Below, one piece after another: positions 1,797-26,753 of a stretch of 64,000 nt of DNA (positions within the stretch are counted from its first letter, which is position 1; every line of letters starts with the position of its first letter). Made by a program: the position numbers and the translations under genes. The notes beneath the pieces were generated by a model that was not told the origin of the DNA, ran no database searches, and saw only the letters and a list, made by a program, of their open reading frames with translations. The stretch comes from a virus. The DNA lies in the IMG/VR virus record IMGVR_UViG_3300035698_019747, positions 1 to 64,000 of that record; one strand, given 5' to 3'.

Positions 1797-2300
1797 ATGA
1801 ATACAAAGGGAAAGAACAAAATAACATGGGATAGTGGTAGCGTAGCACAAGTTGAAAAAGACATGGATGATGGTTATATATTAAAGGCTGCTGAAATACC
1901 CTTTTTCAAAAAAACAGTAGGTCTTCGAAAATCAGGATTACCATTTAGGTTATCAGAAGAAGAAGTAAATGAATATATGAAGTGTAAAGTGAATATATTC
2001 CACTTTATAGAGTCTTATTGTTTTGTTAAAAGTGAAGATGGTGAGTTTCATAAGATAACATTGCGGGATTATCAATCAGATATAATTGAATTATTTAATA
2101 ATAATAAGCTGAACATATTAATGGCAAGCCGACAGGTAGGTAAATGTGTTGATTTTTTAACAGATGTTGAAATTTATGACACAAAAAAAGAGAGTGAGTA
2201 TAAACTCCCCCTCTTTAAATTATATTTCAAAAATAAATCAAAAAATATATATGACTATATAAAATATGGTATATATTCAATAATTTATAAGTTATCCTAA
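1797..2300 (+). CDS. Terminase large subunit, N-terminal fragment fused to a split-intein N-half
   Basis: Residues 1-116 are the N-terminal part of a phage large terminase (TerL, gp17-like), the motor ATPase that packages DNA into proheads. The region includes LRDYQSDIIELFNNNK and the start of the Walker A loop, MASRQVGK. At C117 the terminase sequence stops exactly after the Walker A lysine and becomes 51 residues of intein N-half (CVDFLTDVEIYD, an intein block A with catalytic Cys1), then ends. The missing Thr of the Walker A motif and the rest of the ATPase and nuclease are encoded at 24507-26753 on the opposite strand behind the complementary C-intein. Trans-splicing would restore SRQVGK-TIISA. 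Its end overlaps the convergent HD gene by 9 bases. Confidence 0.93.
   Translation: MNTKGKNKITWDSGSVAQVEKDMDDGYILKAAEIPFFKKTVGLRKSGLPFRLSEEEVNEYMKCKVNIFHFIESYCFVKSEDGEFHKITLRDYQSDIIELFNNNKLNILMASRQVGKCVDFLTDVEIYDTKKESEYKLPLFKLYFKNKSKNIYDYIKYGIYSIIYKLS
2145..2297 (+). other. Split intein N-fragment (51 residues)
   Basis: It begins with the nucleophile Cys117 of the fragment and carries only block A (CVDFLTDVEIYD) plus about 39 residues. Block B (the usual TxxH region) is absent here and sits in the C-half, so the break lies between blocks A and B. Known families with this atypical early break are the AceL-TerL type split inteins, which also interrupt terminase genes. Confidence 0.88.
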
Positions 2301-2804
2301 TTCAACATCTCTGCCCATAATAGTTCCTAATAAATTCCAAGCTTTTGATAATTCACCCTTAGGGTGAAGTTCATTATGAATACCATACCTAAAAGCTGGG
2401 TATGCATTAATATATTCTTGGAATTTTTCGGGTGTATATTCCCTAGAATGTGTCATGTTAGCACATCTATCACAAAGTTTAACTGCCACTGCTTTCCAAT
2501 TTTCTTTAATTTTAGGATAGGTTTTTAATTTTCTCTCTTCTCCGTCTCTTCCTAGTTCATCGGTTACTGCAAAAACAATCTCTGCAACTTCAACATTAAA
2601 TGCATTTTTGATTTGCTTGTAACTTAGGCTATCATCTTCCATAGAGTCATGTAATATACACCCTATAATAACTGACTCATCAAATCCAAAACCTATTGCA
2701 AATTCTACTACCATTTTGATATGATACATATATGGATATATGTCATATTTTTGATTTATATGTGCTTGCTCAGCAATCATAAATGCTTTTTCAATGTTTG
2801 TCAT
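2292..2804 (-). CDS. SpoT/MESH1-like HD-domain phosphohydrolase
   Basis: This 170-aa single-domain protein resembles the ppGpp hydrolase domain of RelA/SpoT enzymes. Visible metal and nucleotide motifs: H28 in MYHIK, HDSMEDDSLSYKQI (His52-Asp53 and the ED pair at 56-57), AEIVFAVTDE, and VKLCDRCANM near residues 109-117, matching the SpoT pattern KLADRxxN. It could remove the starvation alarmone (p)ppGpp during infection or act on a related nucleotide. It is preceded by a TACCTTTG promoter box at 2827-2834, which suggests early, host-type transcription. Small alarmone hydrolases are the closest family; substrate is inferred only. Confidence 0.8.
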   Translation of the reverse strand: MTNIEKAFMIAEQAHINQKYDIYPYMYHIKMVVEFAIGFGFDESVIIGCILHDSMEDDSLSYKQIKNAFNVEVAEIVFAVTDELGRDGEERKLKTYPKIKENWKAVAVKLCDRCANMTHSREYTPEKFQEYINAYPAFRYGIHNELHPKGELSKAWNLLGTIMGRDVELG

Positions 2805-2826
2805 GTCTATAATATTTAATTTAAAT

Positions 2827-2834
2827 CAAAGGTA
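2827..2834 (-). promoter_or_regulatory. TAnnTTTG promoter box (TACCTTTG)
   Basis: Match to the Bacteroidota -7 consensus, 23 bases upstream of the ATG of the SpoT-like HD gene. Confidence 0.45.
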
Positions 2835-2842
2835 ATGAAAAT

Positions 2843-3985
2843 TTATGGGCGGGGGGTATTATGTCCCTTCTTTTTATTTTCTTTTTTGATGACTTCATAT
2901 TCTTTGTGCCAATATTGACTAACTCTTCTGATTAAACTCTTCTTATATTTGTCTGGTGTACGGTTGAATATATGTATATTAAACCTTCTCTCAAATTCAT
3001 TTATGACATCTTTAAGTGGATTCATAATATCATATACATCATCTTCTTCAGGTGTAAATTCCATTCTACTTAAATTTATATCCTTCATAACTTGTGAAAA
3101 TTTCGCATCTATTTCATGTGGTAGGTTTAGATATTTTTGTGATAATATATCTTGTGCAATGTCTTTTTCTATAGGTGTTACATCATCTGGAGTAGAATCT
3201 TCAATATCTTTCGTTAACTCATCAAAATCATATTGAGTTCGTAACGCATGTCCATTACTTCTCTGAGCATCATAAGCATGTTGTAGTTCATGTAATAAAG
3301 TACTATGCATATTCATATAGATATGAAAATATATATTATTAATTATTGATTTCTCAATATCAGATTCCGTTAAATTAGTGGAAGTCTTAACGCCAGAGAA
3401 ATAACCAGATTTCTCAGATAATATTTCTTTATTTCGCTGGCTTATATTTTTAATAATATCTTGATCATAATATAAATGTATAGTATAATCTGTATAATTA
3501 CCTAGTATATGTACTAGTGTACCCTTTAGACCTTTGCGGGTTTTATTTTTTTCTTTAAATAATAATCGGATATTAACTAGTTTTAAGAAGAAACTCAGCT
3601 CAGTATATTTACTTTTATCTTTTATCAACGGTATCACATTTTCCACATATGGTAAATTAATAAGCATATATTTGGTTTGATCTGCTAGTTTGAATTCTAA
3701 ATCAGCTTTATTGAAAGATTTCTCATATCCAAAAAAGGTCACTGTCCCATTACTATAAGACCCCCTTATTTTAAACACCGCACCGTTTGTGAATCCAGAC
3801 TCTTTGGGAAATCCATTTACTATATAATGCCCTTTAATAATTAAATGATCAGCAGTACTAGCATGCCAATACATATTATAATGCTCTCTATATACTTTCT
3901 TAGCATATGCCCTTATTATATCATCTGTGAGCATTTCCAATTCCTTCTGGGATTTATAGCTTTCAAATAGTTTAACATGATCCAT
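2843..3985 (-). CDS. Zinc metallopeptidase-like protein with capsid-targeting-like leader
   Basis: A 380-aa protein with a zincin signature, LLHELQHAYDAQR (HExxH at 232-236), and a downstream NLPHEIDAKF block (289-296) of the type that supplies a third metal ligand or conserved Glu in such families. The N-terminus MDHVKLFESYKS fits the shared leader found on many proteins here, and LFE|S matches the T4 prohead-protease consensus [LI]xE|[AGS]. The C-terminus is strongly basic. It follows the 547-aa leader-bearing gene and a SprT-like gene in a run of - strand genes. Likely a protease acting on host or virion proteins; the exact peptidase family is not identified. Confidence 0.65.
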   Translation of the reverse strand: MDHVKLFESYKSQKELEMLTDDIIRAYAKKVYREHYNMYWHASTADHLIIKGHYIVNGFPKESGFTNGAVFKIRGSYSNGTVTFFGYEKSFNKADLEFKLADQTKYMLINLPYVENVIPLIKDKSKYTELSFFLKLVNIRLLFKEKNKTRKGLKGTLVHILGNYTDYTIHLYYDQDIIKNISQRNKEILSEKSGYFSGVKTSTNLTESDIEKSIINNIYFHIYMNMHSTLLHELQHAYDAQRSNGHALRTQYDFDELTKDIEDSTPDDVTPIEKDIAQDILSQKYLNLPHEIDAKFSQVMKDINLSRMEFTPEEDDVYDIMNPLKDVINEFERRFNIHIFNRTPDKYKKSLIRRVSQYWHKEYEVIKKENKKKGHNTPRP

Positions 3986-3990
3986 ATATA

Positions 3991-5634
3991 TTATAATTTA
4001 TTTTTTATCTTGCCTATGAATAGTGACTTATCTATTTTAATATCACCCTTTTTGAAGGTTATTTTCATTTTATCATATTTAAAAACATAAAAAAATTTAT
4101 TATTACTAGTTGCTATATAATCAGTTTTTATATCAGATAGTATATTTATGTTTTCAAATACATAGTGAGATCCTTTAAACTTAACATCACTCGATATCTT
4201 ATATAACAAAGAACGGTAAATACCACCCTCTATAAACTTTATAAGTCCGATAGAATTCATATCATCTGTTAGATCTATCTCAACATCAGATATTTCAATA
4301 ACAGTATCTATTCTATCTGCTAGTTCTATAATATCCTTTCTCTGTTTGGATATCTCATTAAGTGAGCGTATAATTTGATTTATTACAATAGACCCTCCAT
4401 CGTTACTTATTTTAAGAAATATTTTATCACTATTTTTATCTAGGAATCTGATAAATCTTCTATATTCTCTTACAAAATCTGGTGTTTTAGTAACCCCTAT
4501 TTTTTTAAATTTAAAAAAGGATATTGTACTTTTTCTAGAATATAGTACATCATTTATATTATTAACCAATATAGTAAACGTTAGTGTATCATTTACTAAT
4601 TTATTTAATATACTTATATTTGACTTCTCCCAATCTAAATCTATTATACCCACCGAATCGTCCCATTTACCCCTTGGGCTATAAACCCCTTTAAGTATAG
4701 TTTTCATGTTCCTATGGTGCTTATTGAGAAACACGGTATCTAAAAACCAATGTTTAGTATCATTTAATGTTAATTTATTAGGTAAATTAAGATAAGATGT
4801 TTCTTCATTTAATTCATCTAAGAAGTTACTTAACATTTTAACTTTCTTAGGGTCATCTTTAACTCGCTTAATCTTATCACTTACTTCTTGTTCAATTGTC
4901 ATATCCTTAGGTAATATCTCAATTATATCTTTTTTATCTACCTCAAAATGCTGTCCATCATATTTACTAGTCAATCTTATAAAGTTATTATCTCTCAAAT
5001 TATCTTGATTATGTGAGAAAAACGCTATATTTTCTTCATCACTATCCTTATAATACCTAACCTCATCACCTGGTGATAATGCTCCCTCATCAAAACCTCT
5101 GTTCTCCACATCAGACATATCAAAAACAGTTTCTGGGTTTATTTCAATAACTCTTTTCAAAACCTCTTTTTTAATATCATCAATAAAAACAACCACATTT
5201 TCTCGTATATCATCTATATCATCTGGTTTAAAACAATCATAGAAATCTTGTGACACACTCTTAGTGAAATATACACTACCTTTAGAAAATATATCACTAC
5301 ACAATCTAAATATAGGGGCATAATTTTCCTCTTCAATAGATATTTTATAAAAAGTATCTTTCATCATAGATGTATTTATAAGGAATTCTTTCCAAAACTT
5401 ACGGATAACATCCTCATCACTACATAGTTTCACTTCCTCTATTAATGAATCAAAAGCACCTGTTAAGTATTCTATAATTGTTTTGTGTACTCTATCAGGA
5501 TCACTTTTATGATTATATTCTTCCCTTAATTCATCAATCATTTCTTCTATCTGATTGTTAAATGAATCCATTAAATATTGAAGAGAATTACACCATGTCT
5601 TTCTTTTTTTTTCGAGCCAGTTTAAGTATTTCAT
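3991..5634 (-). CDS. Unknown 547-aa protein with MKYLNWLE leader
   Basis: No domain recognised. It begins MKYLNWLEKKRKTW, similar to the short leader on neighbouring genes, then has a helical first 200 residues rich in Asp/Glu and Lys, a short loop region (ALSPGDEVRYY, typical of a small beta-barrel turn), and a mixed C-terminal half ending in basic residues. It sits 5 bases upstream of the metallopeptidase gene and likely shares its transcript. The leader and context suggest a virion-associated protein; this is inference. Confidence 0.6.
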   Translation of the reverse strand: MKYLNWLEKKRKTWCNSLQYLMDSFNNQIEEMIDELREEYNHKSDPDRVHKTIIEYLTGAFDSLIEEVKLCSDEDVIRKFWKEFLINTSMMKDTFYKISIEEENYAPIFRLCSDIFSKGSVYFTKSVSQDFYDCFKPDDIDDIRENVVVFIDDIKKEVLKRVIEINPETVFDMSDVENRGFDEGALSPGDEVRYYKDSDEENIAFFSHNQDNLRDNNFIRLTSKYDGQHFEVDKKDIIEILPKDMTIEQEVSDKIKRVKDDPKKVKMLSNFLDELNEETSYLNLPNKLTLNDTKHWFLDTVFLNKHHRNMKTILKGVYSPRGKWDDSVGIIDLDWEKSNISILNKLVNDTLTFTILVNNINDVLYSRKSTISFFKFKKIGVTKTPDFVREYRRFIRFLDKNSDKIFLKISNDGGSIVINQIIRSLNEISKQRKDIIELADRIDTVIEISDVEIDLTDDMNSIGLIKFIEGGIYRSLLYKISSDVKFKGSHYVFENINILSDIKTDYIATSNNKFFYVFKYDKMKITFKKGDIKIDKSLFIGKIKNKL

Positions 5635-5668
5635 GTACTATATATTATTTTATTATATTAGGTATGTA

Positions 5669-6370
5669 TTATATATCAATACCTGTTATTTTTTTACTAT
5701 CATTCATAAGTGTATTAAATGCCACATCATCTATTTTATAGGTAGTTAGCTCCTTATTTGTTGACATTTTTTTGAATTTATTAACCACACCATTCTCAGT
5801 ACTTCTTACTTCAATAGATACCTTGCCCTTATTATTCTGTTTTATTATCTCGATAATATTCTTATAATCAGTCTGTTCTGGGTTAAATTTAGCTATTTCA
5901 AAATTCTTATCACCCCTTTTAATCATAATAAATCCTAACGCTTTATCTAAATCTGGGTTTAGGAATTTAAGGTGTGACATAGGTTGTTTAACTAATATCT
6001 GAATTCCCCATTTACTTTTCTTATTTACCTCTGCTGCTTTATCCGTAAATTGTTTAGCATGTCCAGCACTCTTTTTATATTGAACTTCCCACACATGTAT
6101 CATTTCATGTGCTAATACCGACAATGTTTCTTCCTTAGTTAATTTAAATTGTCTAGATACTCCCAAGTACTCTATTTTACTTGACTTCTTATCGTATTTA
6201 ACAACTCCTAATTCTGTCTTAGATTGTGTCCACCTAAGTTCAACTTTCTTTAGTTTCCCACCAAAATATTGAGTATTTATTTTGTCATACCAAGACTGTA
6301 AATTAAAGTTTTTAAAATCAACAAAACTGTTCTTTCTTTCAAAAATTATATATTTCTTTAGATATTTCAT
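5669..6370 (-). CDS. SprT-like zinc metalloprotease
   Basis: A 233-aa protein with the SprT-like arrangement: an N-terminal segment WYDKINTQYFGGKL (typical of the helix before the zincin core), strand-turn sequence VELRW and LGVVKYD, then SVLAHEMIHVWEVQ (HExxH at 88-92) followed by H104 in AGHAKQF as third zinc ligand. SprT-like domains (Spartan, SprT) cleave DNA-bound or other proteins. The first residues, MKYLKKYIIFERKNS, resemble the shared leader. A TTTAATATATA motif at 6392-6402 lies 22 bases upstream. Residues 110-233 form an extra C-terminal region of unknown role. Confidence 0.85.
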   Translation of the reverse strand: MKYLKKYIIFERKNSFVDFKNFNLQSWYDKINTQYFGGKLKKVELRWTQSKTELGVVKYDKKSSKIEYLGVSRQFKLTKEETLSVLAHEMIHVWEVQYKKSAGHAKQFTDKAAEVNKKSKWGIQILVKQPMSHLKFLNPDLDKALGFIMIKRGDKNFEIAKFNPEQTDYKNIIEIIKQNNKGKVSIEVRSTENGVVNKFKKMSTNKELTTYKIDDVAFNTLMNDSKKITGIDI

Positions 6371-6380
6371 ATTTAATAAG

Positions 6381-6388
6381 TATATTTG
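6381..6388 (+). promoter_or_regulatory. TAnnTTTG promoter box (TATATTTG)
   Basis: Host-type -7 box, 24 bases upstream of the ATG of the 2H phosphoesterase gene at 6412. Confidence 0.45.
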
Positions 6389-6391
6389 CAG

Positions 6392-6402
6392 TATATATTA
6401 AA
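6392..6402 (-). promoter_or_regulatory. Late-promoter-like motif TTTAATATATA
   Basis: Exact copy of the recurring 11-bp motif on the - strand, 22 bases upstream of the SprT-like gene. It lies 4 bases from an oppositely directed TAnnTTTG box, so this short gap appears to hold a divergent pair of two promoter classes. Confidence 0.5.
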
Positions 6403-6411
6403 TATTTTGAT

Positions 6412-6918
6412 ATGGATATACACAGTATGGGTAAATTAATATTTAACCCAAAAAATCATACCAAGAAGCATGAGAAACAATCTACATGGAAGAAATCCGC
6501 TATTATAATGGTTGATGATGATACCTCTTTATACTATAGAAGTATCATAGAAAAACGTTATCCATTAATACAAGGTGTGGGGGGTGATATAAATTGGATG
6601 AACCCACCATTGAGAGGTACACATGTTACTATAATCAATGATAAATTTGAAGATTTAGATAAATGGAATAAATTAAAAGAGATGTTCAATAATAAACCAA
6701 TAGATTTCTCTTTTAATTGGGGTGGTCTTAGGAATAATGGGAAACACATATACTTTAAAGTAGATTGTCAGAATGGGCAAAGTATAAGAGATATTATGGG
6801 ATTGGGTAATCCTTATTTCGGGTTCCACTTAACTATCGGACTAGTTCCCAAAGAAAGTAATATAAAAAGTGAGCACTTAGAGCAAGTAAGAAAATATATG
6901 TTAAAATATAAACAATGA
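6412..6918 (+). CDS. 2H phosphoesterase, Acb1-like candidate
   Basis: The 168-aa protein carries the two HxT motifs that define the 2H phosphoesterase superfamily: H71-V-T73 in RGTHVTII and H139-L-T141 in FGFHLTIGLV. Family members open or hydrolyse 2',3'- and cyclic-nucleotide phosphodiesters. Length and motif spacing (68 residues) are close to the T4 anti-CBASS protein Acb1 (about 150 residues, two HxT motifs about 69 apart), which destroys cyclic oligonucleotide immune signals. The promoter is of host type, consistent with early expression. RNA-repair or tRNA-processing roles (LigT-like) are alternatives. Its TGA overlaps the next ATG. Confidence 0.75.
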   Translation: MDIHSMGKLIFNPKNHTKKHEKQSTWKKSAIIMVDDDTSLYYRSIIEKRYPLIQGVGGDINWMNPPLRGTHVTIINDKFEDLDKWNKLKEMFNNKPIDFSFNWGGLRNNGKHIYFKVDCQNGQSIRDIMGLGNPYFGFHLTIGLVPKESNIKSEHLEQVRKYMLKYKQ

Positions 6919-7064
6919 ATGAAATATTAGAAAACTTAATATGGTTAATTTTATTATCCCCTTGGATAGTACTATCCATACTATTTGTAATAGTATCCAT
7001 GGGATTTCTATTGGTAATAAGTCACCAACTATATAAGTCTATTATACGCGATAGAAACAAATAA
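6915..7064 (+). CDS. Small membrane protein, 49 aa
   Basis: Starts within the stop of the 2H gene (ATGA overlap), so it is translationally coupled. It encodes one long hydrophobic segment (roughly residues 7-38, with a Pro-Trp break) and a basic tail, SHQLYKSIIRDRNK, giving a single-pass or hairpin inner-membrane protein. Function unknown. Confidence 0.6.
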   Translation: MNEILENLIWLILLSPWIVLSILFVIVSMGFLLVISHQLYKSIIRDRNK

Positions 7065-7074
7065 ATATATTTAT

Positions 7075-7761
7075 ATGAAAGAAATTAAATGTACTAGCTG
7101 CGGATCTACCGATATTATGGTTAGAAAAGTTGAATTAAACGCTGAATTATCTAAGAAGGATATAAAAAGATTAAAGAAGTATCTAAACGATGACATAGAT
7201 GATATTATAATAGAATGTCATGGTGATTGTGAGGATGAAGTAAGTGTTATATTTAAGCACGAATCAAAGGAATTAAAGGATGTTTATGATATCTTAAATA
7301 CATTAGTGGGAAATAATATATCAAATGATATCATTACTGTTTTAAGTACAAATGATGTAGAGGGTATTAAAAAGTATATAGAGAAATTTATTACAGAGGG
7401 AATAAGCCTTGATTCATCATTAAGTGATATTGATTCAGAAGAATATGATAAGGAGGAGGGATGTTTTTGTTGGCCCATATTAATATACGCCATTGATGAG
7501 AATGCACATAAAGTTGCTATTGAACTAATAAAGGCGGGTGCTAATCCCAATATAACAATCCCGTGGACTGGTTTGACACCATTGATGAAATTGTGTGCAC
7601 AGCGAGGCAAAAGTGATGAGAAATTAGAACTAACTAAAGTATTATTAGATTTTGGTGCTGACTTATCTATAACAGATGATGATGGGCGTGATGTATTTAG
7701 ATGGCTAAAAAATTGGGGTGGAAGAAGTAAAAAAATGGCAAAATTAATTGATAATTATTAA
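7075..7761 (+). CDS. Ankyrin-repeat protein with N-terminal Cys motif
   Basis: Residues 1-60 hold a zinc-ribbon-like pattern, CTSCGS followed by CHGDCED. Residues about 90-228 contain ankyrin-type repeats, the clearest being AIDENAHKVAIELIKAGANPN, GLTPLMKLCAQRG with ELTKVLLDFGADLS, and a capping GRDVFRWL. Ankyrin repeats mediate protein binding, so this may bind a host protein. It ends just before a bidirectional terminator shared with nrdB. A second ankyrin protein lies at 34682-35245. Confidence 0.8.
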   Translation: MKEIKCTSCGSTDIMVRKVELNAELSKKDIKRLKKYLNDDIDDIIIECHGDCEDEVSVIFKHESKELKDVYDILNTLVGNNISNDIITVLSTNDVEGIKKYIEKFITEGISLDSSLSDIDSEEYDKEEGCFCWPILIYAIDENAHKVAIELIKAGANPNITIPWTGLTPLMKLCAQRGKSDEKLELTKVLLDFGADLSITDDDGRDVFRWLKNWGGRSKKMAKLIDNY

Positions 7762-7764
7762 AAT

Positions 7765-7803
7765 AAAAATCCCCATCTGAAAATTATCAAATGGGGATTT
7801 TTT
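7765..7803. terminator. Bidirectional rho-independent terminator
   Basis: Inverted repeat AAATCCCCAT / ATGGGGATTT around a short AT loop, flanked by A and T tracts, placed between the convergent ankyrin and nrdB genes. Confidence 0.85.
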
Positions 7804-7818
7804 ATGCTATAAAACAAT

Positions 7819-8904
7819 TTAGAAATCGAAGCCACTGAAGTCTGAATCATTTAAATCAGATTTAATAGCACCAACATTATATGATGTTATCTCAGTTTCT
7901 TGGGGTGCTGGTTGCTTCTTATTATCCAACCAGTTATTTATCCAAGGAATAGGGTTTTTAGTTTTCTCAAAAATAGGCTCAATTTCAATAGCTTTCATTC
8001 TATTGTTGGTTAAGTATTTCATAAATTGGATTAAAATATTGGCATTTAAACCCATTAATGAGCCATTTCTGAATAAGTACTTCGCCCACTCCATTTCTTC
8101 CGCAGCAGCATCTTCATACATTTTGATAATAGTTGGCTCTAACTCTTTCCAGATTTCCACAAAACCTTCTTCTGGGTTATTCTTTAACTGTCTAAGGACA
8201 AATTGGGTAAATCCAAGGTGTAAATTCTCATCTCGCGCAATTAAAGATATTATCTTCGCATTACCTTCCATTTTATTATTTTCACCAAATGCCCAAGAAC
8301 AAGCAAAAGATACATAGAAACGGATACCCTCAAGTATATTAATAGATACTAATGTTAATAATAATTTTCTCTTTAATTCTTCTTCACTATCTCCCTGAGA
8401 GTTTATTAAATCATCATAATATTTAGTAACTGATACGGTTCTCTTAATGATTTCTTCATTATCCATAACATGGTCTAATACCTCTGATGGTTTAGAATAT
8501 ACTCCTTTAATAATATGAGTATAACTTTGTGAGTGTAAAGTTTCAAATGCTGCCCACCAAGAACAAAATGCCTCGGTTTCTGGATTACTTAGGTGCTCAA
8601 CTAAGTTAGGAATTCCCCTAGACTGAACTGAGTCTAGTAAAATCTGATACTTTAAGTTATCTGTGAATATCTCTTTTTCAAAATCTTGTAATTTCTTAAA
8701 ATCTTTCCTATCATTTGAAGTATCTACTTCATTTGGTCGCCAAAAGGATTCCATCTGTTGATCAACCATCTTATAGATGTTATGATATCTAAATTTATCA
8801 TATCTTTCGATATTCAGTTTCTCACCAAAAAATATTGGTTCTTTTGTGAAATCTATATTTGTTTTAAAATTAATTAACCCACGCACTTTTTTCTCTTCTT
8901 TCAT
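7819..8904 (-). CDS. nrdB: Ribonucleotide reductase class I, small (beta) subunit
   Basis: The 361-aa radical-generating subunit works with NrdA to reduce ribonucleotides to deoxyribonucleotides for phage DNA synthesis. Characteristic sequence: FWRPNEVD near the N-terminus, ETEAFCSWWAAFETLHSQSY with a metal-ligand Glu and Glu-x-x-His, EGIRFYVSFACSWAF, and ISLIARDENLHLGFTQ with a Glu-x-x-His pair. The C-terminal tail SDLNDSDFSGFDF is the type of peptide that docks into the alpha subunit. It lies 28 bases downstream of nrdA and ends at a terminator. Confidence 0.95.
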   Translation of the reverse strand: MKEEKKVRGLINFKTNIDFTKEPIFFGEKLNIERYDKFRYHNIYKMVDQQMESFWRPNEVDTSNDRKDFKKLQDFEKEIFTDNLKYQILLDSVQSRGIPNLVEHLSNPETEAFCSWWAAFETLHSQSYTHIIKGVYSKPSEVLDHVMDNEEIIKRTVSVTKYYDDLINSQGDSEEELKRKLLLTLVSINILEGIRFYVSFACSWAFGENNKMEGNAKIISLIARDENLHLGFTQFVLRQLKNNPEEGFVEIWKELEPTIIKMYEDAAAEEMEWAKYLFRNGSLMGLNANILIQFMKYLTNNRMKAIEIEPIFEKTKNPIPWINNWLDNKKQPAPQETEITSYNVGAIKSDLNDSDFSGFDF

Positions 8905-8932
8905 TTTCTCTTATTTTATGTTTATTTTACTT

Positions 8933-11239: not shown

Positions 11240-11292
11240 TTTATTTATTATTTTTTAATTAGGTACTAGTATATAGTCATGTTTTTTTTTAT

Positions 11293-11317
11293 AAAAAAAC
11301 TTATCAAAAACGATAAA
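11293..11317 (-). terminator. Weak terminator-like hairpin
   Basis: On the - strand a 5-bp stem TTATC / GATAA is followed by seven T residues, just beyond the stop of the 242-aa gene at 11338. The stem is short, so the call is tentative. Confidence 0.35.
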
Positions 11318-11337
11318 ATGACTTTGGAAATTATATA

Positions 11338-12066: not shown

Positions 12067-12128
12067 ATAAATTATTCTTTTTAATTATACTATTTTTTTT
12101 ATTAAATGTTTATAATATATATAATAGT

Positions 12129-12857: not shown

Positions 12858-12867
12858 TAGACAATAT

Positions 12868-13128: not shown

Positions 13129-13142
13129 AATTAAAATTTTTA

Positions 13143-15843: not shown

Positions 15844-15847
15844 ACTA

Positions 15848-15858: not shown

Positions 15859-15862
15859 AAAT

Positions 15863-16126: not shown

Positions 16127-16134
16127 GACACATT

Positions 16135-16521: not shown

Positions 16522-16523
16522 TA

Positions 16524-17108: not shown

Positions 17109-17113
17109 AATTA

Positions 17114-17557
17114 CTATTTATTAATTGATTCAAAGTGTCTGCGTACTAAAAAGTTTTTAATAATACTAGCAACCATAAATGTTAGTGTTATGCCACCTAT
17201 ATTCAACATCGGCACATTTATATTAAAGTATGGATATATCCACACACTTGACCAAAAGCTTAATACTGTACCGAATATTGTCTGAAACCCACTCTCTAAT
17301 AAAGATTGATATCTATTTTGTATAGAATCCAAGAAAAATTTTGGATTATTATGTAAATAGTTAAATACTCTTCTTATCACAAAATTTTTAATTAGCCCAA
17401 TAAATAAAAATATAAGGGTTATGCCTAGGATATTCTGAGTACTAGTATATACACCAAATAATGGGAATATTATAAATGATAATGTGAAGCCTATCAATGT
17501 CCCAAATAAGGTAACTGTTAGGCTCTCTATTATAGATTTTTTAGTTGTTTGTGACAT
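17114..17557 (-). CDS. Four-helix membrane protein with internal duplication
   Basis: A 147-aa protein with four hydrophobic segments arranged as two similar halves. Each half has the pattern ES...FGT..SF, then I.P.F, then GITL.F, then IKNF..RR.F (compare residues 10-65 with 87-143). This matches a phage and plasmid membrane family usually annotated as DUF7220-like, normally present as a single two-helix unit; here the unit is doubled. Function unknown. Confidence 0.6.
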   Translation of the reverse strand: MSQTTKKSIIESLTVTLFGTLIGFTLSFIIFPLFGVYTSTQNILGITLIFLFIGLIKNFVIRRVFNYLHNNPKFFLDSIQNRYQSLLESGFQTIFGTVLSFWSSVWIYPYFNINVPMLNIGGITLTFMVASIIKNFLVRRHFESINK

Positions 17558-17636
17558 ATATAATATAAATTAATTAGTAAAAATCATATTGATAAATTTA
17601 TAAAAAGTTTATAAAAATATTTCACGAATTGATATT

Positions 17637-17773
17637 TTAACCAGAACCACCCACCCGTAGTTTTTTAATAATATCTATATCTAAAATAATAACACCCCTA
17701 TCAGTTGGATATTCTTCCACTTTATTTAAATATCCACCTTTTTTGCCTTAATATGTTTATTTATTTTTCTCAT
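17637..17773 (-). pseudogene. Small gene with a frameshift in an A6 tract
   Basis: From an ATG at 17773 the frame reads MRKINKHIKAKK and then terminates. Adding one A in the six-A run (T run at 17739-17744 on the + strand) restores about 45 codons continuing GGYLNKVEEYPTDRGVII and ending LRVGGSG. The downstream part has no start of its own in that frame. It is either a recent one-base deletion, a sequencing error in a homopolymer, or a slippage-dependent gene. Function unknown. Confidence 0.5.
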
Positions 17774-17775
17774 TT

Positions 17776-18318
17776 TTATATGGGGTACTTTATTATATAA
17801 TTTATAAAAATACCGATACGCGAGTCATTTAAATCAGTAATATAATTATCTAGATACATAACATATTTACCTAGATTTTTTATTTCTTTATATATTCTTT
17901 CCTCAAATTCTTCGTCATCTAAATTAATACCAATAGGATTATCCACTACAGGTAAATTAAGACCATTGAGTATATTTTTGAAATTTCTGAAATGCATAGA
18001 CTTAGATGTGACCAGTCTTTTTTTTTCTATTAGCAGCGGTAGAAAATTCATCAAATGGTTCTGGCACATAACCACCTCGTATTAATTTATCAGTATCAAA
18101 TACAATTCTTTTATCACTATAATATGTTAGGTTAGAACTCCTTGTTAATGATATTGATTTAATTGCTTTAGAATATGACCTGAGATTTTTATCCATACAA
18201 GAAGGTGTATTTAGTTTAAATAAATCATCTTTTATTATAGAATAAATATTGACAAGGACACATATAATGGTGCTTTTGGCCCACCAAGGTAAGATTCATA
18301 GGTTTTTATGTGTTCCAT
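17776..18318 (-). pseudogene. Leader-bearing gene broken by two frameshifts
   Basis: An ATG at 18318 begins MEHIKTYESYLGG, a leader like those on neighbouring genes (TYE|S). The frame then shifts to WAKSTIICVLVNIYSIIKDD and continues through MDKNLRSYSKAIKSISL to FSTAANRKK. At a nine-A run (+ strand 18018-18026) it shifts again to RLVTSKSMHFRNFKNILNG and runs to a stop at 17776. Joined, the product is roughly 180 residues. The second shift lies in a homopolymer, the first near GGTGGGCC. Decay, assembly error or slippage are all possible. Confidence 0.5.
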
Positions 18319-18328
18319 ATGTTATATA

Positions 18329-20041
18329 TTAATTTTTGAATATCCATTTATCTTGACCAGAATTCCACACTCTATAACCACCAACATCTTCATACATTAT
18401 ATCTTTTTCTGATTTATTAGAATCATAACCCATTGAAACTAACTTATCCTTTCGAAAATTATATCTATGATATCTTTTTTTATTAACAACCCAATTGTAA
18501 TTTATTTTACTAGTCTTATTAAATACAAAACCTAATTTTTTATATAAATTACCAGAGCTATATGACCTATCACTAAAAGAATGTATATCAATTACATCAT
18601 AGTTCCTAATGAAATGTTTAAATAATTTAGAAGCCCCGCCAACAACATTAGTGAATTTAGAATTACAAAATCTACTTAACTCATATGATCCAGCCTTAGA
18701 TTTTTGTGACATAAATTTTCTTGGTTTAGAGAAAGTCATAATAGATACTAAATTATCTTCGAAATATAAACCCAAATAAACTGATGCAGAACTAAACCCT
18801 TGTATATGACTATTATCTAAAAACAATCTCGCGGCCTTTGATTTAACATCTTTTACCACACACTTTCTTGCATATATCTTATTATTTGATTTTCCTAACT
18901 TATTGGCCACCATTGACTTTATAATATCTGTCCTAAATACCCAATCATCTTCCCATATATGTAATACATTATAATCACTTTCATATATCATATCAGTCTT
19001 AACCTTATGATAATCTCTTTTTTTATATATTTCTGAATGCCAATATACCCCATTATATTCTATTGCTAATTTATGCTCAGGTATTATTATATCAATCTCA
19101 TAAGGTTTTATTAATTCTCTATCATTAGATATCGTAATACCACTATATATACTCTTAATATATTTTAATAGATTAGATTCAGCTCCTGATTTATTAAAAT
19201 TGTTACCTATGGGATTACACCTTTCACATAATAAGCTCTCATTGTTCACCCTATAATAGAAGTTATAATCACTCAATTCATATAAATGCTCACAATCCTC
19301 ACCATTGATAGTATATACCCCATTATTAATATCAACGACTCTGTGGTTTATATTTTTAGAAACTAGTTTATTATTTAATTTATCTATTCTATCACTCTTA
19401 GAGGTAACATCACTTTTCAATCTTATTTCGGGTAACATCCAAGGGTGTTTAACACCATATCTATCTAATGAAGTTTGTATATAAGATAACTTATACTGCC
19501 CTATATTATCTTTAAAACTACTAACTCTTTTATTATTTATTTCTTTATTTCTAGATGGGTTATCAACCCCCCAATTTTTATTTAAAGTAATTTTAGATTT
19601 TTCTTGTATTAATTTATTAGACATTGGTGAGTTATTACCATATCTTTTTAAATTAGTATTAATAATTTTTTCTTTTATGCCTTTATTCTCAGATGGGGTT
19701 TTATAACCATACTTTTCAATAGATGATAATTCTTTTCTTTTTATGATATTAGGATCGCTTGATACACATTTTGTGGAACAAAATTCTCTATATCCGAGTG
19801 TAGAATTTATATATTTCACTTTACTTTCACAATTAGGGTGTTTACATTTAGGCACACATGCTATGTTATTTTTAAAAAGGTATACCAATTCTTTGAAAGC
19901 GATATCCTCTATAAAATTAATTTTAGAGAATTTAACAACTTCATATAGTTCATCAGGGTAATTATTCTCTAAAAATTTCTTATTAGAAAACTTACCACTG
20001 GGGTCTTTTTTATTAAAAATATTTAAATCCATACTATTCAT
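18329..20041 (-). CDS. Vsr-like (EDxHD family) homing endonuclease
   Basis: A 570-aa free-standing endonuclease. Residues 60-92 hold a Cys cluster (C62, C66, C71, C88, C92) like a zinc finger. Residues 105-205 contain about four repeats of the type KYGxxxPSENKEI (helical DNA-binding modules seen in homing enzymes). CERC at 272-275 follows. The nuclease core includes EIDIIIPEHKLAIEYNGVYW (about 315-334) and LHIWEDDW (360-367), matching the Vsr/very-short-patch-repair fold of I-Bth0305I-type enzymes. This family is known to accompany fractured, split-intein genes. Here it lies between the two terminase halves, 6.4 kb from the C-half. A terminator separates it from the sheath gene. Confidence 0.8.
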   Translation of the reverse strand: MNSMDLNIFNKKDPSGKFSNKKFLENNYPDELYEVVKFSKINFIEDIAFKELVYLFKNNIACVPKCKHPNCESKVKYINSTLGYREFCSTKCVSSDPNIIKRKELSSIEKYGYKTPSENKGIKEKIINTNLKRYGNNSPMSNKLIQEKSKITLNKNWGVDNPSRNKEINNKRVSSFKDNIGQYKLSYIQTSLDRYGVKHPWMLPEIRLKSDVTSKSDRIDKLNNKLVSKNINHRVVDINNGVYTINGEDCEHLYELSDYNFYYRVNNESLLCERCNPIGNNFNKSGAESNLLKYIKSIYSGITISNDRELIKPYEIDIIIPEHKLAIEYNGVYWHSEIYKKRDYHKVKTDMIYESDYNVLHIWEDDWVFRTDIIKSMVANKLGKSNNKIYARKCVVKDVKSKAARLFLDNSHIQGFSSASVYLGLYFEDNLVSIMTFSKPRKFMSQKSKAGSYELSRFCNSKFTNVVGGASKLFKHFIRNYDVIDIHSFSDRSYSSGNLYKKLGFVFNKTSKINYNWVVNKKRYHRYNFRKDKLVSMGYDSNKSEKDIMYEDVGGYRVWNSGQDKWIFKN

Positions 20042-20043
20042 AT

Positions 20044-20075
20044 AAAAAAAAGGCCCAATGTTTAATTGGGTCTTT
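20044..20075 (-). terminator. Rho-independent terminator after the sheath gene
   Basis: On the - strand, stem GACCCAAT / ATTGGGCC with a 5-base loop and an eight-T tract, between the sheath stop (20097) and the endonuclease start (20041). Confidence 0.85.
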
Positions 20076-20096
20076 AATTTTAATCTTTATTTTTAA

Positions 20097-23000
20097 TTAA
20101 ATAAATCCACCACTCTGTATTCCACCAGTTTTAAGTGCGTTTATATTATTTACAATAATACCCATACCCTTGGTAACTTCAACATATGTATCAATTACAC
20201 CCATCTGGTTATCAATTATCTTAGGTGTGTTATTTTCAGAATCTATCTTATTAAAGAATGTGAATAACCCCTTTCTACTAACATAATCTTCACAAATAGC
20301 ATCCGCTCTTAGTTTTATTTCTGATCTAGTCTCTGGGGTATTATATTTCCATTGATAAACAGTTAGCATATCAATTAAATCTCTTTCTAATTCAATAAGA
20401 ACTTCTCTGGCATGTATAAACGATAAAGATGAACGACTCAATTTTTGAGCAGTATTCTCCGTTTCAATCGCATAACCTCTATTTTTCTTAGAAACAATAG
20501 GGTTGATTTTAGCACCAACTAAGTTCTCAATATCCTCTGATGTGAAGTTATATTCAAGACCTGATATATTGGTAACTCTACCATCTGTAACACCCGCAGC
20601 AATAGTCCATGGAGTAACCGATGGAATAGAAGCGTTATGCTTTCTAAGGAATGTTGTTGCCACATAAGCAGCAGGTGGTATATTTATAGGTCTTCCATTA
20701 TCATTAACTGTTACATAAGGTGCAAAATAGCCAACGGTTGTTGAGCCATCACCATCTGCTAGTGTGTAATTAAAAGCTGGATTACTATTAGGATCACCAC
20801 CAAGTTCAATAAACGAACTGTTTAATGAACCATCAGCATTAGTAAAGGTGGGTGAACTAGAATTTCTAAAATTCTTGATACTCGGTGCATTTAATATACC
20901 AAACGCATCTAATCTTTTCCCAGTAATGTTAGCAAAAACCTGCTTACTTCTTTCTACTAAACCAAGACCATAACTATCTACTAAATATCTGAAGTCTATA
21001 ATATTTTTATCAGTCAATGCTTTAAACAATGAAGAGCCATTTTCTATTATACTTAAAATTTCGGATAACCTAGCATCAGTTTTATTAGGCATAGAATCAG
21101 ATCTTTTAACAAATCCCTTTAGTGTAATTGCTTGATATTCTGTAACATAATCATCTACCTCAGTAAATCTTGTTGTTTGTATATTTGCTGTTTGTGGATC
21201 TGTACCAAAAGTTCTGATAAAAATCTCACTATCACAAGTTATTGTCATATTTCCATTACCAAATGGTTTTTTAGATAAAATCCTTGTCATATTTCTAGGA
21301 ACTTCACCAATCTCTAAGTCCGCACTAACCGCTGCTTGTAAGAAATCACCTGCTTTTAATTCACTGTATCTAGCAGTATTAACAACAATGGTATTTGGTG
21401 TAGGATTAAGTACTACATCAATTGTCTGACGGAAATTACTACTCTGGCTAAACACTTTGATATTTTTATCATCAGTTAGGTTAGCCGTTTCTAAATTGGC
21501 ATTCTTAAAGGTTACATTTAAGTTATTACCACCGTATTCATATATTCTAATATAAGATTTATCATCTAAATTTAAAATTTCAGAAACGATTAAGTTTTCT
21601 AGTGAAGCACGCTCTACCATTCTGTTTACATATCCAGTAACACCACCGATACTTGAAGTAGCACCACCTGAGGTTGTCGCAAATGTTATCACTCCCTTAT
21701 TATTTAATGACTCAGGTAATTTTATCCTTTGTCCAGTTGTGAAACTAATATCTGTATCTGTAACTAGGTAGTTGTTACCACTTAATGATACAATAGATAT
21801 ACTGCTTGTACTACCGCTTGTAACTAAATTCTCAAAGAAGTAGTCACCAGTATTTATATTACCATTCATATAATCTATATACATCTCACTTTGCATAGAT
21901 ATAATACCATTAGTTGCACTTGGTGCACCATTAGTTGTAGTAAGTGCAGTTGTACCCATTATGAATTCATCATCTATTTGGTGAATTACTAAACCATTAT
22001 TCACAACTAAATCAATATTAACAGCACCTAAATAAGTTATAGTAATCGTTTTATTAGTATCTGTACTATCGTCAAATTCAAACCTAACTTGTGTGGTTGC
22101 ACTTAGGTTAAGTTTACTTGTTTTACTAAGTAATAGTGTACCATTTCCATAAGTACTACTAGATATTATATTAGATAATTGGTTATAAGTCTTCCAAATT
22201 CTATATTTGGCACAGTCATTAACATCTGGTAATCCAGTTGTTCCAAGAAACTCATATGTAATATTAAGTGCATTGCTTGTAACGGTTATTTCGCTATTAC
22301 CATTCTCATTAAAATATACAAAACCACTATTATCAATATTTATAGCATTATGTACAGAACTTAATATCTCTAATGAGACTCCCACCCTTCTAATAATTAA
22401 ATCTAAGGTATTTAAAACTAACCCAGCTTCTAATTGCGCACTTGTAGGGCTTTTACCAACAGTACCATCAGTATCAATGAAAAATACTTCTGTGTGACTA
22501 ACTGTTCCACCATTTGCCATATCTGTGTATACTTCATAATCATCAGCAGTTATGGTAAATGACGTATCTTCTAAAATAACTACTGATCCACCAATAACTG
22601 CATATGGATCACTTCCCGCTGTGAAATCCACCACAACACTAGTTGTTGCACCAGAACTAGTAAGACCAGCAGTTGCTCCTATATAATCATGTATAAAACC
22701 CTCAGCAAATAACGCACCTCTATTATACCCTGTTAAAGAGGTGTGATAATGATCGTTAAATAACATCTGGGTAGTATTACCAGCTCTATCTAATACTGTT
22801 TCTGAATAATCATCAGTTTCTATAATGTCTTTTTTATAAGATAAGAAATCAATACTTTCAACTTCATTATTATTAATTAAACCACTTCCCAATAAATCTA
22901 AAACACCCGTTCTAAAAGTTTCCTCAACCAAATCCATGTTATATGCACAATACAATCCTGTTGAATCAGTATCATTATTTAAAACATTTTCAATAAAAAT

Positions 23001-23825
23001 ATTTTGTCCATTAGCGTCTCTAAAATAAGGAATTAATGATAAGTTTCTATAAACACCTAAAGTGTTTACGTTTTTATCATTCGCTAAGTCAAATAATTTA
23101 CTTTTAATAAGTCCATTAATATTGAAGTAAGGACTCCATTTAATATCAGACCTTAAAGAAAAATAGTTTGACCAATCACCCTTTAAAATAACAACATCAA
23201 CTAAGTAGTCCGAGGCATAATCTTTACCTGACACATAGAAAGGGACTTTATCCTCACTAACATACCACTCTAATAAAGTAATATCAAACCCAGTTGTAAC
23301 CTGTGATTTAACTATAAATACAGTGATTGTTTGATCATCCATGTTTGTGAAGTGGATAGGTCTATTACTATCCCCGCTATTCCCATCAGTTATAGATAAG
23401 AAAGCTTCTCTATCTCTTTTCCAAAAAGAAGATTTATCAAAGAAATCTCTATAAGATGATTCTCTCTTAATATCACTAGTATTACCAGTAGAAGTAGATA
23501 ATGACTTATACTCCAAAGTATCTAGATCATCATCTGGATTATAAACGTTAAATGCGATAACTGGTGTACTCTCTAAAATTTTAGAAGCTGTTCTATGGAA
23601 ATAAGATTCCTTAGCTTCTAACATTCTATCTAAATCCCCAAATATATTTTTAAGGTCTGTCTGTGAGTTTAAAACCACAGGAGTGTTAACTGGTCCCTTC
23701 TTCGCTGATCCAATAACTAAAACTTGATTACCACTAACAACTGGCGAATCTTCTAGTTGTGATCTATCGAATTCCTCTATGAAAATCCCAGGTCTTTTAT
23801 ACTTCCCAATTTGTACTGATGACAT
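20097..23825 (-). CDS. Tail sheath protein, gp18-like, enlarged
   Basis: A 1242-aa contractile sheath subunit. The N-terminus KYKRPGIFIEEFDRSQ is the classic sheath start (yxxPGvyveE). The first 130 residues contain VLVIGSAKKGPVNTPVVLNS, and the C-terminal 250 residues contain NPIVSKKNRGYAIETENTAQ, the helical REVLIELERDLIDML and VEVTKGMGIIVNNINAL, all typical of the polymerisation domain. Myovirus sheaths are commonly 400-700 residues, so about 500 extra residues (roughly 330-900, rich in Ser/Thr/Asn/Gly beta-type sequence) form surface insertions. No exact TTTAATATATA precedes it, but a related ATAATATATA lies upstream. Confidence 0.9.
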   Translation of the reverse strand: MSSVQIGKYKRPGIFIEEFDRSQLEDSPVVSGNQVLVIGSAKKGPVNTPVVLNSQTDLKNIFGDLDRMLEAKESYFHRTASKILESTPVIAFNVYNPDDDLDTLEYKSLSTSTGNTSDIKRESSYRDFFDKSSFWKRDREAFLSITDGNSGDSNRPIHFTNMDDQTITVFIVKSQVTTGFDITLLEWYVSEDKVPFYVSGKDYASDYLVDVVILKGDWSNYFSLRSDIKWSPYFNINGLIKSKLFDLANDKNVNTLGVYRNLSLIPYFRDANGQNIFIENVLNNDTDSTGLYCAYNMDLVEETFRTGVLDLLGSGLINNNEVESIDFLSYKKDIIETDDYSETVLDRAGNTTQMLFNDHYHTSLTGYNRGALFAEGFIHDYIGATAGLTSSGATTSVVVDFTAGSDPYAVIGGSVVILEDTSFTITADDYEVYTDMANGGTVSHTEVFFIDTDGTVGKSPTSAQLEAGLVLNTLDLIIRRVGVSLEILSSVHNAINIDNSGFVYFNENGNSEITVTSNALNITYEFLGTTGLPDVNDCAKYRIWKTYNQLSNIISSSTYGNGTLLLSKTSKLNLSATTQVRFEFDDSTDTNKTITITYLGAVNIDLVVNNGLVIHQIDDEFIMGTTALTTTNGAPSATNGIISMQSEMYIDYMNGNINTGDYFFENLVTSGSTSSISIVSLSGNNYLVTDTDISFTTGQRIKLPESLNNKGVITFATTSGGATSSIGGVTGYVNRMVERASLENLIVSEILNLDDKSYIRIYEYGGNNLNVTFKNANLETANLTDDKNIKVFSQSSNFRQTIDVVLNPTPNTIVVNTARYSELKAGDFLQAAVSADLEIGEVPRNMTRILSKKPFGNGNMTITCDSEIFIRTFGTDPQTANIQTTRFTEVDDYVTEYQAITLKGFVKRSDSMPNKTDARLSEILSIIENGSSLFKALTDKNIIDFRYLVDSYGLGLVERSKQVFANITGKRLDAFGILNAPSIKNFRNSSSPTFTNADGSLNSSFIELGGDPNSNPAFNYTLADGDGSTTVGYFAPYVTVNDNGRPINIPPAAYVATTFLRKHNASIPSVTPWTIAAGVTDGRVTNISGLEYNFTSEDIENLVGAKINPIVSKKNRGYAIETENTAQKLSRSSLSFIHAREVLIELERDLIDMLTVYQWKYNTPETRSEIKLRADAICEDYVSRKGLFTFFNKIDSENNTPKIIDNQMGVIDTYVEVTKGMGIIVNNINALKTGGIQSGGFI

Positions 23826-23966
23826 ATCTTTATAATTTCTTTTTTATATGTTATATATTATTGTTTTATAATCACATTTTGATTTTTGGCTAGATATAAC
23901 ATCTCTTCTGTATATATTAAAACATTTTCCCTATTAAAATATTTATCGTATATTTACCAATTAATA

Positions 23967-24002
23967 TACATACATACATACATACATACATACATACATA
24001 CA
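23967..24002 (+). repeat. Tetranucleotide microsatellite (TACA)9
   Basis: Nine perfect tandem copies of TACA, ending directly before the ATG at 24003. Length changes by slipped-strand mispairing would alter the leader of the downstream gene. Confidence 0.95.
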
Positions 24003-24173
24003 ATGACTGATAAAGAGTTCGATAAGCTATTTGAATATCCAGTTAGTGTGGGATATATCGGGAAATTTTTAAAAAAAGATAAACAAACTACTCTTAAAAT
24101 AATAAAAGAGTTAATAATAGAAAATAAAATAAAAGAAAGTTATTATGGAAGAGGATTTTACGAGAAGTTTTGA
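24003..24173 (+). CDS. Small HTH-like protein, 56 aa
   Basis: Contains YPVSVGYIGKFLKKDKQTTLKIIKELIIENKIKES, which has the spacing of a winged-helix or helix-turn-helix (recognition helix about residues 25-40, then a wing GRGFY). The ATG at 24003 directly follows the TACA repeat; the frame is open upstream but there it would encode repeat-derived IHTYIHTY. It overlaps the next gene by 29 bases. Possible small DNA-binding regulator. Confidence 0.55.
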   Translation: MTDKEFDKLFEYPVSVGYIGKFLKKDKQTTLKIIKELIIENKIKESYYGRGFYEKF

Positions 24174-24510
24174 TAAAATAGGGAGAGAAATTGATGGATA
24201 TATTTTAGTAAATACAAATTATGATATCTTATTCACATCCATTAATGATATGTTAATGGAATTATATGGTATAAATGAACCAACTATGATTTTCCAAGCA
24301 ATAGAATATCTAAATAGAAATCACGATAAATATCGTTTTGGTGAAAGTGCGGATGGTAATATTATATGTCTAGAAGATAATATTACCTCTCATATAAGTG
24401 AAATGCGCACAGATGCCATTAAAGATATGCAAATAGAACTAGAAAAGTGTGTTAAAGTTGAAGACTATGAAGGTGCTGGTGAATGGCTGAGAATTATTAA
24501 TGAATCCTAA
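24145..24510 (+). CDS. Unknown 121-aa protein with UVR-like C-terminus
   Basis: The N-terminal part holds a helical domain (NDMLMELYGINEPTMIFQAIEYLN). The last 30 residues, IELEKCVKVEDYEGAGEWLR, resemble the UVR motif found in UvrB/UvrC and ClpC (lexAvxxEDYExAaxLRd). It overlaps both the small HTH-like gene and, by 4 bases, the convergent terminase C-half. Confidence 0.55.
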   Translation: MEEDFTRSFDKIGREIDGYILVNTNYDILFTSINDMLMELYGINEPTMIFQAIEYLNRNHDKYRFGESADGNIICLEDNITSHISEMRTDAIKDMQIELEKCVKVEDYEGAGEWLRIINES

Positions 24511-26753
24511 AATAAATCAGATGGTTTTATCAAACCATTGGTATGGGGAGTTAAATTAAGTTGACTATTTTTCATAGATTTGAAAAAATTAGTATAATCT
24601 GTCCCCATACCTATATCCCTTTCTAATATAGTTTTCATTTTTGTTTTCATTATTTCAGTACCTTTATCTACATGGAATTCTTCGATAAGTCCCTTTACTT
24701 TACTATTACTCCAACCCTGTGATAAGTTCACAAGAGTCATAGCAATATCATCATTACCGCCATCCCCTTTATAGGTGATATTACCCGCATTAGTTTTATG
24801 TGCAATAAAAGTACTTATCTCTTTAATAGTACCTTCTTCTCTTACAAGGAAATTTTCTTGTTCGAACATCATTTGGTAGTCTTTCACATATCTGTTCTTC
24901 TGAGGACCAACCTTAAGACCTACCTCTGAATCTTTAGCATCCATTCTATGTTTGAATTTTAACATAACATGATTACTATAATCATTATTACTCTCAAATA
25001 CACTTCTAATAGACTTTAAGAAGGCTTTACCATCGTTATTATACTCGACTAATACCTTTATCTTATCTGGGTCAAAAAAGTGGAAAACAAGTAAGTATAC
25101 AAACTCTGCCAATTGATCCACACTAATTATATTACCCCTAAATAAAGCAAATTGTTCTAATTTAAAAAAGTCTTGAAAAGTGGATATTGTGTCTTTTTGT
25201 GACTCAATTAACTCCATACTTTTATAACCTAATTCTGTCATATTAACCACACTATAATCCTGTCCAAGCCCCTCCGATATATCAATAGATAATACACCAT
25301 ATACCTCTTTTCTTCTATCTGGGTTAAATACCTCATCAAATTTGAGATGAGACCTCCAATCCCACTTTAATATCTTAAATATATCAATATCATTTATAGT
25401 AATGAACTTTCGTTTACCTTCGTTTATTCTCTCAATTGATGTCTCCGATAAGACACTTCTACTCCCAGAGGCAAACCTAAGGTCATATTCTTGATTAAAA
25501 TTATCCTCACCACCAATATCTTTTATCGCATCTAATTTCCAGCTAGATACAACTGATATTTCTCTAACATGTACTTCATTACCATCTTTGTTTATAAATA
25601 CCTTATTTATTATATCTTCATATTTTATAGTAGTGGTATTTTGTATATTGATTATTTTATTTCCACTATCAACATCCTTTTTTAACTCAATTATTTTTTT
25701 CTTGTTAGGTGCGTAAATCTTATTTTGGGGATCATACTCTTTATTACACTGCTCAATAAGCATATCTATTGTTATATTATATTGTGGTAAAATATGCTCA
25801 TTTAATTTAATATAAGTGACATTGCGCCCAGGTACTTGGTACCAATATACTGTCATAGAAGCAAAGTTATTTTTCATTGGGTCTGTTTTCTCTCTCTCTG
25901 AATCACTTAGGAGTTTATGGAAAAGATTAAATCCATTCGGTGTAGATGTTATAATCATTTTAGAATTTTCAATAGATGCTAGAGTAGGGAAAATTGATTT
26001 ATAGAAATTATTTGCCAAAGTATCTGAAATGTGAGCAAACTCATCTATATACACAAAGTCAGCAGTATTACCAATTGATACAGATTTAGTCATAGCAAAT
26101 GCCTTTACCCTAGTACCATTTTCTAGTTTAATCTGCTTAATGTTCCACACCTTGATTCCTTGCTTTAGAAAAAATGGTAGAAATTGATAAATTATTTTAA
26201 TCTTATCCAACACTTCTTGTGATGTGTCAAATATGTTAGCTGCAATAAGCACACTTTTATTATTATTGAACAATATATAATGTAAAATATATAGTGCAGA
26301 AATAATCGTATTGTGACTCAATATACCATTGGTATAATACCTGTGGTTATGTGAGTTTATTGTTACATCAACCATTGAAGTTTTTCTACTCGTTCTTTCT
26401 AAACTAGTGACTTTTGAATATCCGCTATTAGTAGATACTTTATCACCCATTTTTAAGTTTTTAATGAAAACCTCACTCATATCAGATTTGAAAATGATGT
26501 GATTATCTGCACAGCTCATAGACATACCATTTTCTAATATTAAATGGTAATGTGTATATGGCTGTGTTATGAATATATCCGAAGCCTCTTCATACCCAGT
26601 GTCAGTTTTTATATGTATATCTTTAAGTTTATTACCCGATATGATTTTCTTGGATATATCACTTTCATCTAAATCGTTATTCCTATATTCTATCTGTTCT
26701 ATAAACTCAATTAAATTATACAGTTTATTTACTAAAATCCTTTTAATATTCAT
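24507..26753 (-). CDS. Split-intein C-half fused to the terminase large subunit ATPase/nuclease
   Basis: Residues 1-148 are an intein C-half and residues 149-748 the main body of TerL. The C-extein starts TIISALYILHY, whose Thr completes the Walker A motif begun by SRQVGK in the gene at 1797. Walker B is VYIDEF (234-239), followed by MIITSTPNGFN (motif III). The RNase H-like nuclease domain shows LSIDISEGLGQDYSVV and a late acidic DDIAMTLVN. Splicing would give a 716-residue terminase, near the 610 of T4 gp17. It starts with MNIKRILVNKLYN and is preceded by TTTAATATATA, as is the N-half. Alone it has no complete ATP-binding loop. Confidence 0.95.
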   Translation of the reverse strand: MNIKRILVNKLYNLIEFIEQIEYRNNDLDESDISKKIISGNKLKDIHIKTDTGYEEASDIFITQPYTHYHLILENGMSMSCADNHIIFKSDMSEVFIKNLKMGDKVSTNSGYSKVTSLERTSRKTSMVDVTINSHNHRYYTNGILSHNTIISALYILHYILFNNNKSVLIAANIFDTSQEVLDKIKIIYQFLPFFLKQGIKVWNIKQIKLENGTRVKAFAMTKSVSIGNTADFVYIDEFAHISDTLANNFYKSIFPTLASIENSKMIITSTPNGFNLFHKLLSDSEREKTDPMKNNFASMTVYWYQVPGRNVTYIKLNEHILPQYNITIDMLIEQCNKEYDPQNKIYAPNKKKIIELKKDVDSGNKIINIQNTTTIKYEDIINKVFINKDGNEVHVREISVVSSWKLDAIKDIGGEDNFNQEYDLRFASGSRSVLSETSIERINEGKRKFITINDIDIFKILKWDWRSHLKFDEVFNPDRRKEVYGVLSIDISEGLGQDYSVVNMTELGYKSMELIESQKDTISTFQDFFKLEQFALFRGNIISVDQLAEFVYLLVFHFFDPDKIKVLVEYNNDGKAFLKSIRSVFESNNDYSNHVMLKFKHRMDAKDSEVGLKVGPQKNRYVKDYQMMFEQENFLVREEGTIKEISTFIAHKTNAGNITYKGDGGNDDIAMTLVNLSQGWSNSKVKGLIEEFHVDKGTEIMKTKMKTILERDIGMGTDYTNFFKSMKNSQLNLTPHTNGLIKPSDLF
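26310..26753 (-). other. Split intein C-fragment (148 residues)
   Basis: Contains a block B-like stretch (SMSCADNHIIF), a GD turn (NLKMGDKVST), block F (MVDVTINSHNHRYYTNG) and block G (ILSHN), with the terminal Asn148 followed by Thr149 as +1 nucleophile. No endonuclease domain is present. Blocks B, F and G are all in this half, so the break is of the atypical type with a short N-half. Confidence 0.9.

Follow-up and report, generated by a model that had tools for sequence, protein, structure and literature searches.

The large subunit of the terminase of the virus in IMG/VR record IMGVR_UViG_3300035698_019747 is encoded by two genes on opposite strands, both within the window analysed here, which is the first 64 kb of this 152,402-bp record. 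Each gene joins one part of the enzyme to one part of an intein, and it is very likely that they descend from a fractured terminase gene that was secondarily dispersed by rearrangement, with their two products undergoing protein trans-splicing across the ATP-binding loop to give an active T4-type packaging motor.

The shorter gene is an open reading frame (ORF) of 167 aa at 1797-2300 (+). Its first 116 residues (the N-extein, 1797-2144) are the start of the terminase large subunit and end in the Walker A residues SRQVGK, after which Cys117 and 50 more residues form a 51-aa intein N-part (2145-2297), which has a C-terminal amphipathic helix and is 58% identical to that of G002, a relative at ~57% identity whose record is 270,756 bp long. 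The longer ORF, of 748 aa at 24507-26753 (-), begins with a 148-aa intein C-part (26310-26753), which carries an N-terminal helix and the block-B His (CADNH) and ends SHN; it continues from the +1 residue Thr149, the Walker A Thr, into a C-extein of 600 terminase residues (24510-26309) containing the Walker B and nuclease motifs. The two ORFs are parted by a gap of 22,206 bp, with 24,957 bp between their starts. The two-ORF anatomy reported in a first-pass annotation of this DNA agreed with our re-reading in its coordinates, strands and quoted residues, as did the separation by about 24 kb in opposite orientation.

Both halves are recognisable as parts of a T4-type terminase. A profile of the N-half family matches T4 gp17 (E 2e-19), with the alignment stopping at the insertion site. 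The C half matches gp17 in a sequence search (E 2e-24) and PF03237 (E 1.2e-11), and an AlphaFold2 (AF2) model of it, of limited confidence (mean predicted local distance difference test score, pLDDT, 69), retrieves gp17 from the PDB (E 1e-19). The hallmarks of this type are present, in the form of Walker A (SRQVGK/T), Walker B (VYIDEF) and a tail sheath gene next but one, and the acidic residues of the nuclease (D491, E570 and D668/D669) are invariant in the alignment. As the insertion falls between the Lys and Thr of Walker A, and all later terminase motifs sit in the C half, each half is without some essential residues, in keeping with the earlier claim that neither could work alone given a break inside the ATP-binding loop.

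The inserted residues belong to a split intein. Residues 36-148 of the C half match the solved inteins gp41-1 (E 1.5e-6), CatC (E 2.5e-6) and VidaL (E 2e-4), the family profile of the intein C-part matches gp41-1 at E 7e-9, and the AF2 model of the C half retrieves VidaL from the PDB at E 2e-5. The catalytic residues are retained: the nucleophile Cys1, which is Cys117 in the window protein, is found in all 60 of the family members that possess an N half; the block-B His, the terminal SHN and the +1 Thr149 are all present in the aligned window C half; and the C-part ends SHN in 65 of the 72 family members, with SLN or NLN in the other seven. In LR756500 it ends SSQ. The NLN or SLN ending of LR756501 and its relatives L075, L081 and L086 reflects loss of the penultimate His in a mostly dispersed clade. 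Terminase genes of other phages, such as the Jug phages and ICP1, are split at the RNA level (PMC12363816; PMC10448857), yet an interruption of this kind has next to no probability here, since the additional residues are translated and make up a conserved intein; a group I intron was rejected, as comparison of the window with Rfam gave no match of that type.

The intein parts also share features at their break. Across the family the N-part is 42-73 aa long (median 55) and the C-part 143-157 aa (median 148), and both bear a conserved, hydrophobic, helix-like stretch where they were parted. In the unsplit intein of the relative L032, an AF2 model (pLDDT 87) has a HINT (hedgehog/intein) fold matching VidaL, gp41-1 and Cat, with the stretches flanking the break position forming a single helix, residues 37-68, that spans it. 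This model suggests that the two helix segments would help the halves to dock. Such a docking device could alternatively be the whole purpose of the intein, with the halves associating non-covalently as an unspliced enzyme. Enzymes encoded in pieces that work unspliced do exist, for instance a split ribonucleotide reductase in a T4-like phage (cited in PMC10448857). Nevertheless, this explanation is very unlikely, because docking alone would not need the Cys1, block-B His, terminal Asn and +1 Thr that are kept family-wide, and because the cut lies between the Walker A Lys and Thr, where ~200 intein residues intervene.

Relatives of these genes display a series of arrangements. These were surveyed in 84 dereplicated representative loci, chosen by similarity to the query among the matches listed, so that the counts are not natural frequencies. 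The halves were adjacent with a DUF559/MTES_1575-type endonuclease in 43 representatives, as in L009 and LR756500, where the N half, the endonuclease gene and the C half lie in a row, and adjacent with no endonuclease detected in a further 18. Three terminases were uninterrupted, L004 and PTm1 being examples, and four were interrupted in cis; a contiguous intein at the same Walker A site occurs in Ackermannviridae, and also in L032 and L053. Ten representatives were without an N half in the stretch fetched, mostly where contigs end, and six were dispersed. An apparent extra insertion, probably a cis intein, lies in the nuclease part of the 1137-aa C-half ORF of L031 (9008-12421, +), and L113, L155 and L166 are similar.

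Dispersed halves take several forms. They remain on one strand in G002 (~67 kb apart), LR756501 (12 kb), G016 (~9 kb), G010 (~12 kb) and G008 (~11 kb), with the endonuclease still behind the N half in G010 (locus L160). The arrangement on opposite strands recurs in G011, whose C half lies at 1996 (+) and whose N half occupies 26924-26412 (-), with mostly different genes in between. In the isolated Salicola phage SCTP-2 (MF360958), the terminase is encoded at three loci: the N piece at 429356-429748 (-), the middle piece at 256428-257321 (+) and the last piece at 215993-218077 (-), where a second split intein interrupts the Walker B region (between LLY and CDEF) and, beyond it, the last piece also contains a cis intein.

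A tree of the C-exteins places the window in a clade of five (Shimodaira-Hasegawa-like approximate likelihood-ratio test 100) in which the other members differ in their arrangement: L027 has adjacent halves with an endonuclease between them, L004 is uninterrupted, G002 is dispersed, and L031 lacks an N half in the 9 kb upstream. Over the whole tree dispersal takes several changes, of which well-supported branches require three or more. In L027, the N half is preceded by a 403-aa gene, and the C half is followed by the tail sheath gene. The N half of G002 retains a homologue of the 403-aa gene, plus two more upstream genes typical of adjacent forms, and its C half retains the sheath gene. The breakpoint of the G002 rearrangement therefore lay between the two halves, as each keeps its own neighbours from the adjacent form. 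The window C half is also beside the sheath gene, which marks the native place of the terminase; the neighbours of its N half, a C5 DNA methylase gene and an HD domain gene, are not the ancestral ones, and no synteny with relatives was found around it.

The reconstruction that best combines these data has the intein first inserting into the Walker A loop of the gene for the large subunit of the terminase, after which the interrupted gene would have become fractured, with the N half, an endonuclease gene and the C half side by side. Rearrangement of the genome would then have parted the halves, with the C half staying by the tail sheath gene and the N half left alone on the opposite strand. The separately made proteins would bind through their intein parts, probably aided by the break helices, to form the HINT fold; Cys117 would attack, the chain would pass to Thr149, and Asn148 would cyclise. 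The predicted outcome is the joining of ...SRQVGK to T-IISALY..., rebuilding an active T4-type packaging motor. The data themselves show the gene anatomy, the homology, the catalytic residues, the selection and the series of arrangements among relatives; we infer splicing and its efficiency, docking through the helices, and the dependence of packaging on splicing.

The conserved catalytic residues and purifying selection both fit trans-splicing. Between the window and G002, dN is 0.28-0.37 and dS ~1.5-1.6 across all four segments, such that the intein parts and exteins are under similar purifying selection, although the halves sit in different places. The corresponding dN/dS values, of 0.18 for the intein N-part, 0.23 for the intein C-part and 0.21-0.22 for the exteins, are rough, with dS near saturation, and this is one of several points that weigh against the trans-splicing explanation. 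The splice product is so far unobserved. The record has no end repeats, as is also the case for G002, and is possibly incomplete, meaning an intact terminase could lie outside it. Furthermore, the N half is only 1.8 kb from the end of the record, and a search for a second, independent assembly nearly identical to this phage found none.

Some of these points leave room for the two ORFs being remnants, with a complete terminase beyond the 152-kb record. An intact second terminase, named in the first-pass annotation as counter-evidence, was not found in that possibly incomplete record, and no further terminase was detected in the 270-kb G002, which is likewise not known to be complete. Two relatives among the huge phages do bear a second terminase-like protein comprising the ATPase domain only (LR756501, 699854-701026, -; LR756500, 193332-194144, -). 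However, these paralogues lack a nuclease domain and have the dead sequence RQMGI in place of the Walker A lysine, making a regulatory pseudo-ATPase a possible role. With no extra copy seen in G002, all segments under purifying selection and the active-site motifs intact, the remnant explanation is slightly less credible than a mere docking tag. More improbable again is that a continuous or adjacent gene was misjoined by assembly or recombination. This would draw on the record being metagenomic, on the position of the N half near its end, and on the missing second assembly. Yet each half has its own start codon, stop and upstream motif, the N ORF overlaps the end of its convergent neighbour by 9 nt, and split halves are both adjacent and dispersed among relatives. 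A rearranged assembly, also raised by the first-pass annotation, can be dismissed as the origin of the split: among relatives this pair of proteins turns up adjacent, widely separated and on opposite strands.

Fractured genes were reportedly described by Dassa et al. in 2009 as essential genes broken inside an intein, with the intein split and an endonuclease standing free, and L009, L027 and LR756500 display exactly this order of N half, endonuclease and C half. The window differs in that 22 kb lies between its halves, which are on opposite strands, and neither has an attached endonuclease. The naturally split phage terminase inteins AceL-TerL, GOS-TerL and Cat likewise have a short N-part, and the window C-part matches CatC (E as above). 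Nevertheless, the N-parts of AceL-TerL and GOS-TerL are 25-37 aa, and GOS-TerL uses Ser1/Cys+1 (PMC11766414), whereas the window has an N-part of 51 aa, Cys1/Thr+1, and conserved helices flanking its break. Its break falls in the same intein interval as theirs but inside an added helix. The longer N-part and the break within a helix, together with descent from a widespread fractured terminase, refine the interpretation of the first-pass annotation, which is otherwise supported. Cyanobacterial split DnaE is a host replicase with another intein and split site, rather than a packaging ATPase of a phage interrupted within the P-loop. The Ackermannviridae VAP7 and KWBSE43-6 have a related intein at the same insertion site, but in a single, cis-splicing gene, and no helical extension can be recognised where the break would be. 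SCTP-2 is similar in having terminase pieces dispersed on opposite strands with the same Walker A cut, but differs in having three pieces, the second split intein and the cis intein. No paper describing its split terminase was found, although record MF360958 names the pieces.

A literature search that was thin on subscription journals found no publication on a terminase whose halves are encoded far apart. Fractured genes, split inteins in terminases and a split DnaE with dispersed halves have precedents; what is new is that a phage terminase has been dispersed repeatedly, in one case as three pieces. Present-day examples thereby trace an essential phage enzyme from an intact gene, through a fractured gene, to scattered pieces. 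A broader proposal, which we advance tentatively, is that these genes represent a widespread and apparently uncatalogued class of split terminase intein, in which conserved break helices let the halves meet and so allow phages to scatter an essential gene; dispersal would then have happened several times, even into three pieces, and may tie assembly of the motor to the joint late expression of distant genes. There are practical consequences for annotation, which can easily call the C half a terminase and overlook the short N half, such that the motor can seem defective. The family also contains many natural split inteins with a distinctive break helix, which are possibly useful tools, while SCTP-2 is an isolated phage in which terminase trans-splicing is directly testable.

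The promoter-like motif that the first-pass annotation attributed to both halves was found as TTTAATATATA at 1780-1790 (+), 6 nt ahead of the N-half start codon, and at 26758-26768 (-), 4 nt ahead of that of the C half. Over the whole record it occurs within 60 nt upstream of 24/172 genes, against 0.8 expected, an enrichment suggesting that it may be a phage promoter. Its spacing has two favoured distances, of ~4 and ~20 nt before the ATG.

The tail sheath gene (20097-23825, -) is the conserved downstream neighbour of the C half, including in L027 and G002. Adjoining it, near but outside the terminase gene, is a free-standing homing-endonuclease-like gene with an MTES_1575 nuclease domain (18329-20041, -), homologues of which lie close to the C half in G002 and immediately next to it in G011. 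The record contains no close match to the fracture endonuclease of relatives, the best (E 0.045, 18941-19063) being inside this free-standing gene, and an endonuclease remnant beside either window half was rejected as unconvincing. Elsewhere in the window, at 53980-54452 (+), five consecutive tRNA genes comprise one for Arg and four for Ser with different anticodons.
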